Shown: positions 8,868 through 14,224 of the stretch, in pieces
Position numbering within the stretch: the first letter of the stretch is position 1
Layout: each line of letters opens with the position of its first letter
Source: Thermococcus sp. AM4
Lineage (GTDB): Archaea; Methanobacteriota_B; Thermococci; Thermococcales; Thermococcaceae
Length of the DNA stretch: 64,000 nt
Direction: 5' to 3'
Assembly (NCBI RefSeq): GCF_000151205.2
Contig: NC_016051.1
Span: 620,001 to 684,000, forward strand
Program-made: the position numbers and the translations under genes
Notes under the pieces: generated by a model
Told to the model about the DNA's origin: nothing
The model's database searches: none
The model's input: only the letters and a program-made list of their open reading frames with translations

Positions 8868-9794
8868 TCAGCCCGAGAAGGAGATGTAGAGGAAGATCGC
8901 GTAGATCGTCAGGAAGACGAGGCCGGTCTTTCTTCCAACGCGGTTGTTCCTTCTCAAGGAAAAGGTCAGGATTAGCATCACGAGGAGGGTCAGCGGGACC
9001 GTTCTGTGGAGGATCTCGGGATCGACCTTTATCGGCCTTATGAGCGAGGCTATGCCTATAACCATGAGGATGTCCAGTATGTCGGCGCCGATTATGTTGC
9101 CCACGCTTATGTTGGGGAGACGCTTTATGGCTGCCATAACCGCGTTCGTGAACTCGGGCAGGGAGGTTCCGATGGAAACGAGGGTCAGGCCTATGACGAC
9201 CTCTGAAATCCCCGCGGCCCTGGCTATCTCGACGGCGCTGTTGACGACGAGCTTCGCGCCGACGACGACGAGCAGGCCAGAGCCAAGGAGTATGAGGACG
9301 TCCCTCTTTGGATTGCCCCTCTCCGCTTCGATGGCCTCAAGGCTCATGTGCTCGCGGTAGAGGTAGTAGAGGAAGCCGAAGTAGATGAGGATGAGGCTCA
9401 GACCGTCGAGCCTTCCGATCGTGCCGTCGAGCATGAGGAGTGAAACGTACGCCGTTATCGCCACCAGGAAAACGGAGTGCTTCCACGAGGTTTCATCCAC
9501 GTCGAGGGGGAGTATCATCGAGGCGACGCCGAGGATGAGGGCTATATTGGCGAGAGCACTCCCGATGGCGTTGCCCAGGGCTATGTCGCTGCTCCCCCTG
9601 AGGGCGGCTAAAGCCGAGACCGTGACCTCTGGCAGGGTGGTGGCGACGCTCGCGAGGACGAGGGCTATTATGAACTCGCTCACGCCAAAGCCCTTCGCAA
9701 CCCTCGCAGCGGCCTCTATGAAGAGGTCGCTCCCCTTTATCAGGAGAACCAGGCCTACCGCAAAGGCTCCGAGAACGACGATCATTGATTCCAT
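8868..9794 (-). CDS. Na+/Ca2+ exchanger family (CaCA) membrane protein
   Basis: About 308 residues with ten or so hydrophobic segments and the two inverted alpha repeats of the CaCA superfamily: ATTLPEVTVSALAA followed by LGNAIGSALANI (about 50-95), and GTSLPEFTNAV followed by VGNIIGADILDI (about 205-240). The Glu/Asn residues in these repeats coordinate the cation. The paired repeats and short central loop match prokaryotic YrbG-like exchangers. ATG 9794 follows GGTGATGACA and its ribosome site overlaps the stop of the NYN gene at 9800, so it is the last gene of the NYN operon. Confidence 0.88.
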   Translation of the reverse strand: MESMIVVLGAFAVGLVLLIKGSDLFIEAAARVAKGFGVSEFIIALVLASVATTLPEVTVSALAALRGSSDIALGNAIGSALANIALILGVASMILPLDVDETSWKHSVFLVAITAYVSLLMLDGTIGRLDGLSLILIYFGFLYYLYREHMSLEAIEAERGNPKRDVLILLGSGLLVVVGAKLVVNSAVEIARAAGISEVVIGLTLVSIGTSLPEFTNAVMAAIKRLPNISVGNIIGADILDILMVIGIASLIRPIKVDPEILHRTVPLTLLVMLILTFSLRRNNRVGRKTGLVFLTIYAIFLYISFSG

Positions 9795-9799
9795 TGTCA

Positions 9800-10297
9800 T
9801 CACCGGGCTTCCTCGTTTTCGGTCTTCCGCGAGGGCGTCATCTTGATGACGTAATCGGCGGCGTTCTGGAGGGCAACGGAAAAGCCGGGCTCAACGCCTA
9901 TAACCACGGTCTCCTTTCCGCGCCTCTTCGCCTCTATTATGAGGGGCAGAAAATCCGCGTCGCGGGAGGCGAGGGCTATGACGTCCACGTCGGCGGTGTA
10001 GATCATCTCCATCGTCTCGATCGCGACCCTGACGTCGGTGTCGCCGGCAACGATGACCGGCTCGAGCCCCTGGTTCACTATCGCCTCAACGAGCCCCTGG
10101 GGGGCGTACTGGTTCAGTATCACCTTGGCTATCCTGACGCTCCCGATCCTGTTGAGGGCCTCGATTATGTCCTCGAGCTTTATGCCGAACTCCTTTCGCA
10201 GTATGTTGGGGCCGTCTATGATGAGGCCGATCCTCTTCTTGGGCTGTTCCTCCTCCTTCTCGCCCCTCTTGAGTATCCTGAAGAGGCTATTCCTCAT
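9800..10297 (-). CDS. NYN-domain (PIN-like) putative RNase, intact acidic site
   Basis: A 165-residue NYN protein of the archaeal TIGR00288/DUF88 type. Acidic positions expected in the active site are present: IDGPN (about 28-32), VAGDTDVR (about 80) and SRDADFLPL (about 110). NYN domains share the PIN/FLAP nuclease fold and several are RNases. The start ATG 10297 is preceded by GGTGAGGAG and overlaps the upstream paralog by 11 bp. The pair is translationally coupled and followed by an ion exchanger. No RNA target is known. Confidence 0.82.
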
Positions 10298-10796
10298 CCT
10301 CCTCACCGCCGAGAACTATGGCGTAGTCTGCCGCGTGCTTCAGAGCAACCGAAAAGCCGGGCTCAACGCCTATAACAACCGTTTCCTTGCCCTTCTCCTT
10401 GGCCTTGAGTATGACGGGCAGGAACTCAGCGTTCCTCGTGGCTATGGCTATGACGTCGATGTGGGGGTTGTAGATCTCCTTCATCGCCTCGACAGCTAAC
10501 TTAACTCCCGTCTCGCCCGAGACTATCATCGGCTCGAAACCCTGATTTGAAACGGCCTCTATGAGCCCCTGAGGGGCGTACTGGTTGAGAACGACCTTCG
10601 CAACGCGGATGTCCCCGATCTCGGAGAGGACTTCCACGAGATCCTCGAGCTTGACGCCGAGTTCTTTCCTCAGCATGTTGGGGCCGTCTATCAGGAGGGC
10701 TATTCTCTTGCCGCGCGATATCTTGCTCTTCATCTGGCCGATGATCCTTATGCCGCTCTTCGTCATCGATACTATCTTCTCCCACTTGCCGCTCAT
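10287..10796 (-). CDS. NYN-domain paralog with degenerate acidic residues
   Basis: A 169-residue paralog of the downstream NYN gene, alignable throughout ([32 protein letters not shown]). IDGPN is kept, but GDTDVR is GETGVK and SRDADF is TRNAEF, so at least three acidic positions are lost or altered. It may be a non-catalytic partner forming a heteromer with the intact copy, or it may have a different metal-independent role. An N-terminal extension of about 25 residues is basic. ATG 10796 has GGTG upstream and a TATA-like TTTTTAACT further up. It is the first gene of the unit and lies just downstream of tmcA. Confidence 0.8.
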
Positions 10797-10857: not shown

Positions 10858-13293
10858 TCATGCCTTCAGCAGGCGCTTGTAGTAGTACCAGAGGCCCCTT
10901 ATGATGTCGCGCACCTCAATCATTGTGAAGGTCTCGGTTCTGTCTATGAGCTTCGCCGTCTCCTCCCAGCTGTGGGCCTGGAGAACGCGGTAGATGAGGA
11001 GCCTTATCTGCCTCTCGTCGAGGTAGGGCTTCATCCAGCCGTCGAGGAAGTAGAGCTTCACTATCGGCTTCACCGCATCGACCACGGTATCGTAGGTCAG
11101 GACCTTGCCCGTGAAGGCATCAAGCCTCTTCTTCTGAATCTCCGTGAGGTGAACCGGATAATCAACGGCCTCGCCGAAGGGCGTCTCAAAGAGCCAGCGC
11201 GCTATCTCTGGCTCGAGCTCCCTGTGCGTGTCTCCGAGCCACTCGGTGAGCCTTATCCTGAACTCGTCGTTGGCCTTCTTGATTAGCTTCTTGGCCCTCT
11301 CGCTTATCGGCTTGAGGACTATAGCGGTGAACTCACCGCTGACCGGGTTCCTCGCGGGGCTGAGGTGAACCACCGCGAAGCCGTTCCTGACCCAGAAGCG
11401 GACGAGTTCCTCACTCGCGCCAAATCCCGAACCAATCCAGTCGAGGCCCTTTTCGCGAGCCTCCTTCTCAAGGAGCTCCAGTGCCTTGCTTCCCAGGCCT
11501 CTGTCCATCGCGTCCGGGTGGGTTGCTATCCTCACTATCCTGTAACCCTTCAGCTTCGCGAACTCCTTCAAATAATGGTGCTTGACCATCATGTCCGGGA
11601 TTATGTTTCCGCGAGGCTTGTAGCCCTTGGCCATCTTCTCTATTACTTTCTTCGGGATTCCTCCTTCCTTGGCAATCTGTATCGCCGTCACTATCTTGCC
11701 GTTCTTGAGCCTGAGCACGCGGGCCTCGTGGTGTGGAGCATCAGCGAGTAAAGCCACGTCGCTCGGCCTGTTGCGGTAGTGCGCTAAGATATAGATTCCA
11801 ACGAAGTTTCTGAGGTCCTCCCGGTCGTTCTCGAACCAGTCGTCGAGGTCGGGCTCTTCCAGATAGACCTCCTTCTTCTCAATCAGCTCGAAGTCCTCCT
11901 CGGTGAGCTCCACAGGCTCGGCATCGAGCAGGAGAACGTCGAAGAGCCACCGTTCAATCGGGTCGTTTTCCGCATAGCGAATCGGCTCGTCCATGTGGAG
12001 CTCCTTAAACTCCCTCTTCTCCCTCGCCCTCTTGAGGAACTTCACCGAGAAGCCCCTTCCCGCTCCCTCGTAGCCGTGAATCGTTGAGGAGTAAACGACG
12101 CGCTCCTTGTTGAGGTACTTGTGGAGTATCGGGACGTGGATTCCTGCCGCTTCGTCGAGAATGTAGAGGTCTGCGCTCTTCTTGTAACCATCGGCCGGCG
12201 GGTAATAGCGGAGGCCGATTTTCCTCGCGTAGAGCTCCTTTATCAGCCCGCGCTCTTCAACGACGTAGGGCTTGAAGCCGAGCCTTTCCAAAGCCCTCTT
12301 GGCGAAGCGGAACAGGGCCTGAACGTTCTCAAGCTCGGGGGCGGTAACGACGATTCTCGTCCTCTTCTTTAGGGCCAAAGCTAAACCTATCGCGCCGATT
12401 CCGACGGAAACGCTCTTGCCCCTTCCCCTATCTGCCGTCAGAACGAGCATTCCGCCCTCGACCAGCTCCTCGAAGGCCTTCAAAACCTCGACCTGGCCCT
12501 CGGTTAGGGCCATCTCGTAGAGCTCCTTCGGGAAGAGAGTCTCCTCCGGGATAGGAACTCCCTTTCTCGCTTTAATCCTCGCCTGGCTCTTGCTCCTCTT
12601 CGGCTTTTTCCTGGCCTTTCCGCCCTCGGTGATGATGTAAATTCCATCGTGCTCCGTGAACTTCCTGATGAGCCTTCTATTGAAGCGCTTCTTGACGTCG
12701 TCTATGGTGTAGGGGGGCGTTACAAGGCTCTTGTGAAAGCCCGTCCACATGTTCTTCCACTTCTCGAAGGGGTGAGCCAGTATGAAAATCAGCCCTCCAC
12801 CACGAACGGTCTCGATAATCCTTCCGAGGTCGTTCGGCGAGTAGTCGTAGCTCATATCGAGGATGAGCAAATCGTAGGTCCTTCCGAGGATGTCGCGGGT
12901 GTGCTTGAAGGTAACGGCCTTTACCTCGACGTTTGAGCCAGCCAAGACGTCGAAGTGCTTCCTGAAGGCCTCGTAGCGCTTTCTGCCGAAGGTCTCCTCG
13001 CCGAGCGCGTCGGTGGCGTAGAGGACCTCTATTTTATCCTCGCTCTCGTCGCGGAGGCGCTTCTTCATGAGCTCTTCCAAAATTCCGCTCAGAACCCTCG
13101 CGGAGGCCCCCGCGAGTATTCCGGCCAACTCGGCCTTCCTCAGTGTATCGCCCTCGATTACAATCATTCTCCTGTGGAAGTTCTCAAGGGCCTGGGCTAA
13201 AGCCGTCTCGGTGAGCTTTAAGATTGAGTCCTTAACCTTCTCGCCCTTCGCGTAGTCTCTCACTTCCTTGTCAAAGCGGACCTTCACGGTCAT
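10858..13293 (-). CDS. tmcA: RNA cytidine acetyltransferase TmcA (Nat10/Kre33 family)
   Basis: An 811-residue enzyme that makes N4-acetylcytidine in RNA using ATP and acetyl-CoA. The N-terminal domain carries the conserved region LDMSYDYSPNDL (about 146). Walker A is TADRGRGKS (about 286-294) and Walker B-like LYILDEAAG near 365. A GNAT domain follows (about 520-640, with HPDAMDRGLGSKALELLEKE contacting acetyl-CoA), then a C-terminal tRNA-binding tail. In Thermococcales the homolog acetylates many rRNA, tRNA and mRNA sites. ATG 13293 follows GGGGGGTCGCT. The NYN pair lies 62 bp downstream on the same strand, with its own TATA-like element. Confidence 0.95.
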   Translation of the reverse strand: MTVKVRFDKEVRDYAKGEKVKDSILKLTETALAQALENFHRRMIVIEGDTLRKAELAGILAGASARVLSGILEELMKKRLRDESEDKIEVLYATDALGEETFGRKRYEAFRKHFDVLAGSNVEVKAVTFKHTRDILGRTYDLLILDMSYDYSPNDLGRIIETVRGGGLIFILAHPFEKWKNMWTGFHKSLVTPPYTIDDVKKRFNRRLIRKFTEHDGIYIITEGGKARKKPKRSKSQARIKARKGVPIPEETLFPKELYEMALTEGQVEVLKAFEELVEGGMLVLTADRGRGKSVSVGIGAIGLALALKKRTRIVVTAPELENVQALFRFAKRALERLGFKPYVVEERGLIKELYARKIGLRYYPPADGYKKSADLYILDEAAGIHVPILHKYLNKERVVYSSTIHGYEGAGRGFSVKFLKRAREKREFKELHMDEPIRYAENDPIERWLFDVLLLDAEPVELTEEDFELIEKKEVYLEEPDLDDWFENDREDLRNFVGIYILAHYRNRPSDVALLADAPHHEARVLRLKNGKIVTAIQIAKEGGIPKKVIEKMAKGYKPRGNIIPDMMVKHHYLKEFAKLKGYRIVRIATHPDAMDRGLGSKALELLEKEAREKGLDWIGSGFGASEELVRFWVRNGFAVVHLSPARNPVSGEFTAIVLKPISERAKKLIKKANDEFRIRLTEWLGDTHRELEPEIARWLFETPFGEAVDYPVHLTEIQKKRLDAFTGKVLTYDTVVDAVKPIVKLYFLDGWMKPYLDERQIRLLIYRVLQAHSWEETAKLIDRTETFTMIEVRDIIRGLWYYYKRLLKA

Positions 13294-13373: not shown

Positions 13374-13715
13374 ATGAAGGCCGAGATCAAAAACCTCATA
13401 GACAGGGGGACGTACAGGAAGCTGCCCCTCTTTGAGGGAGAACTGCCCGAGAACAGCTACGCCCAGATAGTGGAGATCAAGCCCGGGCAGACGGTCGGGA
13501 GGCACTACCACCTGCACCAGTACGAGCTGTTCTGCATACTGAGCGGCGAGGCAAGGCTCGGCATCGGCGATGAGGAGTACCTCGCGAGGCCGGGCGATAT
13601 ATTCCTCGTCAAGCCGAGAACTGTTCACTGGGTGATCAACGAGCGCGACGAGCCCTTCAGGCTCTTCGTGGTTAAGCTGAACTACCGCGGAGACGACTCG
13701 GTGTGGCTGGATTAA
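13374..13715 (+). CDS. Cupin-domain protein
   Basis: A 113-residue single-domain cupin. Metal-ligand motif 1 is GRHYHLHQYELFCILSG (about 43-59; two His and one Glu) and motif 2 is PGDIFLVKPRTVHWV (about 75-89; His). Substrate unknown; small cupins of this type include sugar isomerases, dioxygenases and sensors. The TATA-like CCTTTTAATC lies about 25 nt before ATG 13374, so the transcript is probably leaderless. It is convergent with, and overlaps by 4 bp, the RelE-like gene. Confidence 0.8.
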   Translation: MKAEIKNLIDRGTYRKLPLFEGELPENSYAQIVEIKPGQTVGRHYHLHQYELFCILSGEARLGIGDEEYLARPGDIFLVKPRTVHWVINERDEPFRLFVVKLNYRGDDSVWLD

Positions 13716-13993
13716 CGATAGGCACTTTCCCGGGGTCTTAGGTCCGTTACCACTATCACTTTTTCCTCCCAGTAGACCGTGTAGAAAAGGCGGTAGTCCC
13801 CAATCCGAAACCGATACGTATTGGTGTGACGGCTTTTGGTTCCTTTCACTGGCTTTACATCAAAGGGAGGTTTGGGAAAAGGGTTGTGCTCCAGAACCCT
13901 TAAGAACTCCGAGAGCTTTTTCCTCTGGCTCTCTTTCAGGTATTTCTTGGCGTTCCTGATGACATTCCTGTCCACCACAACCTGAAAGGGCAT
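13712..13993 (-). CDS. relE: RelE/ParE-family toxin
   Basis: A 93-residue RelE-like protein. Features are an N-terminal basic helix (RNVIRNAKKYLKE), the central strand TYRFRIGDYRLFYTVY (about 58-73) and a C-terminal basic/aromatic end (LRPRESAYR). Archaeal RelE toxins cleave mRNA in the ribosomal A site. It is 9 bp downstream of the antitoxin gene and starts with ATG after AGGTGATTGA. Size, order and spacing fit the archaeal RelBE arrangement. Confidence 0.82.
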   Translation of the reverse strand: MPFQVVVDRNVIRNAKKYLKESQRKKLSEFLRVLEHNPFPKPPFDVKPVKGTKSRHTNTYRFRIGDYRLFYTVYWEEKVIVVTDLRPRESAYR

Positions 13994-14002
13994 TCAATCA
14001 CC

Positions 14003-14224
14003 TCATGCCTCAAGCTCCCTGAGGGCCTCCTCAAGGCTCATGCCTTTCTCTGGGTTTTTCCTAAGTTCCTCTGCTTTCCTGAGGAGTTCCTCGTAAAGTT
14101 CCTCGTTCACGATCTCAGGCTCCTCAGACTCGGCTATTAGCCTCAGAAGCTCCTCTTCAATTTCATCGAGCTTCTTCCGCATCTCTCTGATATCATTGAG
14201 AAGCCTGATGACACTCACTCCCAT
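14003..14224 (-). CDS. relB: RelB-like antitoxin
   Basis: A 73-residue, strongly acidic, all-helical protein lacking a clear DNA-binding domain, like Pyrococcus RelB which wraps around RelE. Long amphipathic helices span residues 5-35 and 40-72. It precedes the RelE-like gene by 9 bp on the same strand. The TATA-like TTTTTAACT sits about 25 nt upstream of the ATG. Identification rests on context and composition; the sequence itself is low in diagnostic motifs. Confidence 0.72.
   Translation of the reverse strand: MGVSVIRLLNDIREMRKKLDEIEEELLRLIAESEEPEIVNEELYEELLRKAEELRKNPEKGMSLEEALRELEA

Follow-up and report, generated by a model that had tools for sequence, protein, structure and literature searches.

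Two adjoining genes of the window (the whole stretch of Thermococcus sp. AM4 DNA that was analysed, 64,000 nucleotides) encode NYN-domain proteins of the TIGR00288 family, namely a degenerate upstream copy, here called UP, and an intact downstream copy, DN. The gene order on the minus strand is tmcA, UP, DN and a calcium/sodium antiporter gene, with tmcA, for an RNA cytidine acetyltransferase, lying 61 bp upstream of UP (Table 1). A preliminary description, made from the sequence alone, had reported an 11-bp overlap between UP and DN; this is borne out, provided that DN starts at the ATG at position 10297, as the upstream GTG at 10306 would extend the overlap to 20 bp. Translational coupling of the two genes is possible. 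The same description had the two proteins aligning end to end, which is true of the domain (66% identity over 131 amino acids) but not of the N- and C-terminal ends, which align poorly. UP and DN are the only two TIGR00288 members found in the genome of Thermococcus sp. AM4. Elsewhere in the window, a ParE/RelE-family toxin gene (13712-13993, minus strand) has a small gene upstream of it (14003-14224, minus strand) that matches no family and sits in the place of an antitoxin.

Table 1. Features of the UP/DN locus, numbered from the first letter of the window, and of a third NYN paralogue in other genomes, numbered by locus.
Feature	Position	Strand	Length	Remark
UP, upstream NYN copy	10287..10796	-	169 aa	degenerate TIGR00288 protein
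DN, downstream NYN copy	9800..10297	-	165 aa	intact TIGR00288 protein
UP/DN overlap	10287..10297	-	11 bp	UP stop and DN start (ATG)
UP motif GETGVK	10500..10517	-		second acidic motif replaced
UP motif TRNAEF	10422..10439	-		third and fourth acids replaced
DN motif GDTDVR	10028..10045	-		intact; opposite UP GETGVK
DN motif SRDADF	9950..9967	-		intact; opposite UP TRNAEF
tmcA, NAT10/TmcA RNA cytidine acetyltransferase	10858..13293	-		NAT10/TmcA Pfam domain matches
calcium/sodium antiporter gene (TIGR00367)	8868..9803	-		overlaps DN stop by 4 bp
third NYN paralogue, six Thermococcaceae genomes	L353:3413-3904, L354:3516-3992, L355:3234-3704, L356:3670-4164, L357:3282-3758, L358:3617-4117			

Both proteins score above the curated cut-off of TIGR00288 (216.8 bits for UP and 204.4 for DN; cut-off 178.45) and above that of Pfam NYN (PF01936; 77.7 and 84.3 bits, respectively, against 24.2), in agreement with the NYN-domain identity first given to them. 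The TIGR00288 model is itself a "hypothetical equivalog", and its name does not separate intact from degenerate copies. Among solved structures, sequence comparison returned 2qip, the structure of Vibrio VPA0982, as the one believable relative (E 0.0066). AlphaFold models of the single chains, folded from an alignment that left out L266, L275 and L289, reached a pLDDT of 87.4 for UP and 89.3 for DN. The predicted models align to 2qip with Z 18.4 (2.3 Å over 136) for UP and Z 18.2 (2.5 Å over 139) for DN, and both also align to MARF1 NYN structures, Z again being about 18; Regnase entries were not among the matches listed, which carries no weight either way. As modelled, both UP and DN retain the NYN fold.

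It is at the active site that the two copies differ. DN possesses D28, N31, D86, D88, D113 and D115, whereas UP keeps D37 and N40 but carries E95, G97, N122 and E124 in place of the four further aspartates, with E95 and E124 standing opposite D86 and D115 of DN. When the family profile is compared with VPA0982, residues 17, 95 and 118 of the 2qip chain face DN acids; allowing for a uniform shift of 3 in the numbering, they are D14, D92 and D115 of VPA0982, which the source text gives as conserved active residues matching D358, D426 and D452 of MARF1 (PMC11346440). Their counterparts are D28, D88 and D113 in DN and D37, G97 and N122 in UP. All three, together with D115, are aspartates in DN in 89 of 89 genomes, whereas UP retains the first of the three assigned catalytic aspartates and has G97, N122 and E124 in every one of the 89. 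The Gly and Asn offer no carboxylate to a metal ion. UP still has the acids D37, E95 and E124, by which it may retain some residual metal binding, and a rearranged site built on these three could in principle leave it a nuclease, with E95 and E124 acidic and fixed in 89/89. Yet Gly and Asn occupy the positions of the catalytic D92 and D115 of VPA0982, and the Regnase-1 double Asp-to-Asn mutant of the catalytic centre is described as inactive (PMC4772114), so that we regard such an activity as highly improbable. Thus, UP is a member of TIGR00288 and of the NYN group by descent and fold, like DN above the curated cut-offs, but differs from the family in being without its acids and does not have the catalytic aspartates of an active NYN RNase.

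The pair occurs in 89 of the 94 Thermococcales genomes searched, each of the 89 having at least two TIGR00288 matches, and the remaining five, one of which is >90% complete, have neither gene. In all 89 pairs the genes are adjacent, on one strand and in the order UP then DN. The preliminary description had UP with replaced acids beside a DN with all of them, proposed to follow this loss through the Thermococcales homologues and named UP orthologues with an intact site as evidence to the contrary. Its motifs are confirmed and its expectation is sustained: UP has E, G, N and E at the four acid positions in 89/89 genomes, a constancy beyond chance, DN reads D/N/D/D/D/D in 89/89, and no UP orthologue with an intact site was found among the 89 pair-bearing genomes. 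The complete UP set (D37, N40, E95, G97, N122 and E124) is present in 88 of 89; the exception, L139, differs at the first motif owing to its N-terminus, upstream of the E, G, N and E positions. For this census, genome G091 was represented by L250 in place of L159 (contig C77). That contig, which lies within a Thermococcus metagenome bin and carries an Archaeoglobi-like single-copy TIGR00288 gene (L003, L100 and L159), is probably contamination. Outside Thermococcaceae, all acids are present in 94 of 108 distinct sequences.

Both copies are under strong purifying selection, with a dN/dS of about 0.04. For genome pairs with dS 0.1-1.5, the median is 0.041 for UP (204 pairs) and 0.036 for DN (324 pairs); selection therefore constrains the degenerate copy no less than the intact one. 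A tree of 108 rows, for which exclusion of the four acid columns was intended, recovers UP (23 rows, 99/99) and DN (23 rows, 99/98) as sister clades and places the class's single-copy sister families outside them. Accordingly, the duplication predates the Thermococcaceae radiation, and on this phylogeny a single event in the ancestor of the family gave rise to both UP and DN. Recent decay, with one copy on its way to being lost, has a probability close to nil: within Thermococcales nothing speaks for it, and only elsewhere in TIGR00288 does a single-copy protein, L219, suggest decay. It is refuted by replacements that are common to all 89 orthologues, and the low dN/dS and the depth of the UP clade also stand against it. 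Given the fixed replacements, the sister clades and the purifying selection, UP is by sequence an ancient, maintained pseudo-nuclease, which gives the pseudo-enzyme of the preliminary description a conserved basis in 89/89 genomes.

The two genes also behave as one unit. None of the 94 Thermococcales genomes has just one of them. In 58 of 60 loci, UP and DN overlap when DN is given the possible start closest to the UP stop, a choice that favours small overlaps and may differ from the true DN start; at 35 loci the overlap is exactly 4 bp. In genus g3 (L115-L121, L160), the UP and DN frames overlap by tens of bases, far above most other genera, the distance from the nearest possible DN start to the UP stop downstream of it being 59 to 119 bases at the seven loci tallied. 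That UP and DN form a functional unit is supported indirectly, since they are never apart, keep the same order, overlap and show a complementary loss of family-invariant residues that is described below.

The neighbours of the pair are far less stable than the pair itself. In 60 of the 89 genomes, with about 9 kb each and some shorter contigs, the distance between tmcA and UP is at most 300 bases at 40 loci, up to 1 kb at five more and greater at one; 14 of the 60, all belonging to genera g3 and g4, in which the neighbours have changed completely, have no tmcA in the stretch of some 9 kb around the pair. Because the pair persists in those 14, the link to tmcA is weak and looks like lineage-restricted regional synteny. 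The adjacent acetyltransferase had earlier been taken to suggest a role in RNA quality; the adjacency stands (within 1 kb in 45 of 60), but as a functional clue it is downgraded. In T. kodakarensis, TmcA (TK0754) is reported to be needed for the ac4C modification and for the organism to grow normally at 93 °C (PMC6393311), and position alone ties the UP-DN pair to tmcA. The antiporter gene, which adjoins the pair in 27 of the same 60 genomes, probably lies outside the UP-DN system. In other archaea, guilt by association yielded no common theme, the neighbours of the single-copy gene being UPF0425 and RNA 3'-phosphate cyclase in Methanobacteriaceae and TatD, HerA-like, ATP-grasp and rhomboid proteins elsewhere.

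Mirror-tree coevolution was likewise rejected as evidence for the pair, as the distance correlation of UP with DN (0.864) is equalled by that of UP with the antiporter (0.868; 25 genomes). This want of a pair-specific signal would suit an independent UP, that is, an RNA- or nucleotide-binding protein physically unconnected with DN, the tandem being a duplication relic kept by operon structure. UP also has a conserved N-terminal segment of its own (W5 and E6 in 83 of 84 sequences) and the UP-only His154. However, the genes have never been separated, despite the complete change of neighbours in g3 and g4, and no genome keeps just one, which makes an independent UP distinctly unlikely.

In two further explanations, one product of the pair would hold the other in check. 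A type II toxin-antitoxin pair was rejected: such pairs have a sporadic, mobile distribution, whereas UP and DN are present in 89 of 94 genomes, always together, as sister clades with one origin each. Alternatively, UP could be an inhibitor or buffer that binds active DN, as in a housekeeping nuclease-inhibitor pair. An inhibitor-first gene order is common for antitoxins, and UP is encoded first, overlaps DN, has the same fold and strictly co-occurs with it. Yet the pair is distributed vertically and occurs almost throughout the family, the five genomes that have no UP having no DN either; UP and DN evolve equally slowly; and single-copy relatives tolerate the intact gene on its own, so that there is no intrinsic need for an inhibitor. 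On balance, this explanation is an unlikely one.

A comparison with 95 single-copy relatives shows what each copy has given up. In 49 columns, 95% or more of these relatives share the same residue; eight of the 49 have been lost from one copy or the other, and none from both. The five lost in UP only are the four acids and an Asn, now His154; the three lost in DN only are a Leu, now Ile26, a Lys, now Glu122, and a Glu, now Arg125. Zero overlap between five and three losses among 49 columns has a chance expectation of about 72%, and the pattern was spotted post hoc; the zero overlap by itself is not significant, and the complementarity therefore rests on which residues were lost and not on their count. 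The Lys and Glu lost from DN are invariant in 95/95 single-copy relatives and in 89/89 UP (K131, E134), being as constant as the catalytic acids, and they stand one turn apart on the fourth helix of the domain. Predicted secondary structure puts them near the C-terminal end of this helix, which bears the third and fourth acids at its N-terminal end, and the Lys/Glu patch would thus lie at the end opposite the active site. Near the end of the neighbouring helix, UP has Lys or Arg106 where DN and the relatives have an acid. Charges at positions 106 and 131 (UP numbering) are consequently alike within each chain and opposite between UP and DN, a pattern that could mark an interface or a shared RNA-binding surface.

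Degenerate NYN copies have arisen elsewhere as well. In Methanobacteriaceae, a separate TIGR00288 duplication gave a clade (99/89) that is nested among the family's own copies in the 108-row tree. This second copy (L226-L239) is distant from the intact one and occurs in 14 of the 149 genomes of the class that were searched. The third acid is Asn in 12 of 13 distinct sequences, and four of those 12 also have Glu at the fourth acid, giving the same TRNAEF motif as in UP. The patch Lys, however, is lost in 13/13; these copies are therefore no simple copy of the Thermococcaceae model, and the loss in an independent lineage counts against a model in which the dead copy retains its tail. A third NYN paralogue, examined in six Thermococcaceae genomes, has its first Asp replaced by Asn (NGPN) and its fourth by His or Asn, the second and third being kept (6/6). 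It has long branches and falls nearest DN in a quick tree, which used part of the rows of the 108-row tree and left out L065, a long branch. Genome G077 has broken copies of this paralogue as well. L219/L312 (G205) is a degenerate single-copy protein with the motif TRGADF, from a class of which 121 of 149 sampled genomes have no TIGR00288 match; an intact partner was not found in that genome, and L219 may be decaying.

The reading that we favour, as somewhat better than an even chance, is that UP and DN make up one heteromeric RNase in which DN is catalytic and UP is non-catalytic but required. The preliminary description, which had already proposed an active/pseudo-enzyme heteromer whose dead subunit would perhaps bind RNA, is thus supported in part. 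DN, with its complete acid set, would be the catalytic subunit, a metal-dependent NYN endoribonuclease. UP would be a non-catalytic subunit of the same fold, held by selection and produced together with DN from the overlapping genes; DN would depend on it to recognise or position RNA. The ancestor would have been a self-associating NYN RNase that was split by complementary loss: UP would have lost the catalytic end, with all four acids and an Asn, and DN, at the other end of the fourth helix, the Lys/Glu patch, so that each can fill only one of the two roles. Mutual binding of UP and DN, cutting of RNA by DN and none by UP, and this assignment of roles are what we infer. Counting against a heteromer, the NYN domain of MARF1 is reported as a monomer in solution (PMC6294520), which means that NYN domains need not associate.

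A bolder proposal, which we consider unlikely, extends this to the family. TIGR00288 NYN RNases in general would be asymmetric dimers in which one catalytic centre is enough; the Thermococcaceae would have divided the two roles by complementary loss, and the recruitment of dead subunits would be recurrent in the family, as the degenerate paralogues of Methanobacteriaceae and the third Thermococcaceae paralogue would indicate. UP would then keep the ancestral Lys/Glu patch without catalysis, and DN would keep catalysis with an inverted patch (E122, R125), the nearby acid having been inverted in UP (K/R106). With charges that are alike within a chain but opposite in its partner, a heteromer would be preferred to either homomer.

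If the favoured heteromer is true, it would be the first concrete hypothesis of how members of TIGR00288, a widespread archaeal family, work. That the site is replaced identically in every pair-bearing genome points to a dead copy dedicated to partnering the live one. Thermococcus strains are genetically tractable, and a true heteromer would be open to a clean genetic test there. It would also be an evolved, natural version of a Regnase-1-like dimer mechanism; to our knowledge, the mechanism of a dead and a live PIN chain acting together is otherwise known from a laboratory mixture only.

Paralogous catalytic and structural or inactive subunits are found in the archaeal exosome (Rrp41/Rrp42) and the tRNA-splicing endonuclease, which are experimentally proven complexes. 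UP and DN resemble them as active and inactive paralogues, with those systems likewise belonging to archaeal RNA processing; they differ in that the folds of those systems are unrelated to NYN and in that the UP-DN complex is a prediction. Active/inactive paralogue pairs are thus already known, and what appears new is that such a pair evolved within the NYN family, with complementary loss; the titles and abstract beginnings of the open-licence literature yielded no description of the UP-DN pair. MARF1 and the CRISPR-associated NYN RNases share the fold and the catalytic Asp positions with the pair (PMC11346440, PMC6294520), but the relevant passages of these sources describe them as single active proteins and mention no adjoining degenerate paralogue. 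There is also a likeness to Regnase-1 (MCPIP1), whose PIN domain is reported to work as a head-to-tail dimer, with dimer-blocking mutations abolishing cleavage (PMC4772114). In the same account, a dead D226N/D244N (DDNN) chain rescues partners whose basic residues are impaired, because the catalytic centre is needed by the primary chain only (PMC4772114). Thus, a dead subunit can act as the secondary chain, presenting residues to the live one. Regnase-1 is a homodimer, and its dead chain was made in the laboratory, whereas UP and DN are separate dead and live genes; by analogy, UP has the look of a naturally dead secondary chain.
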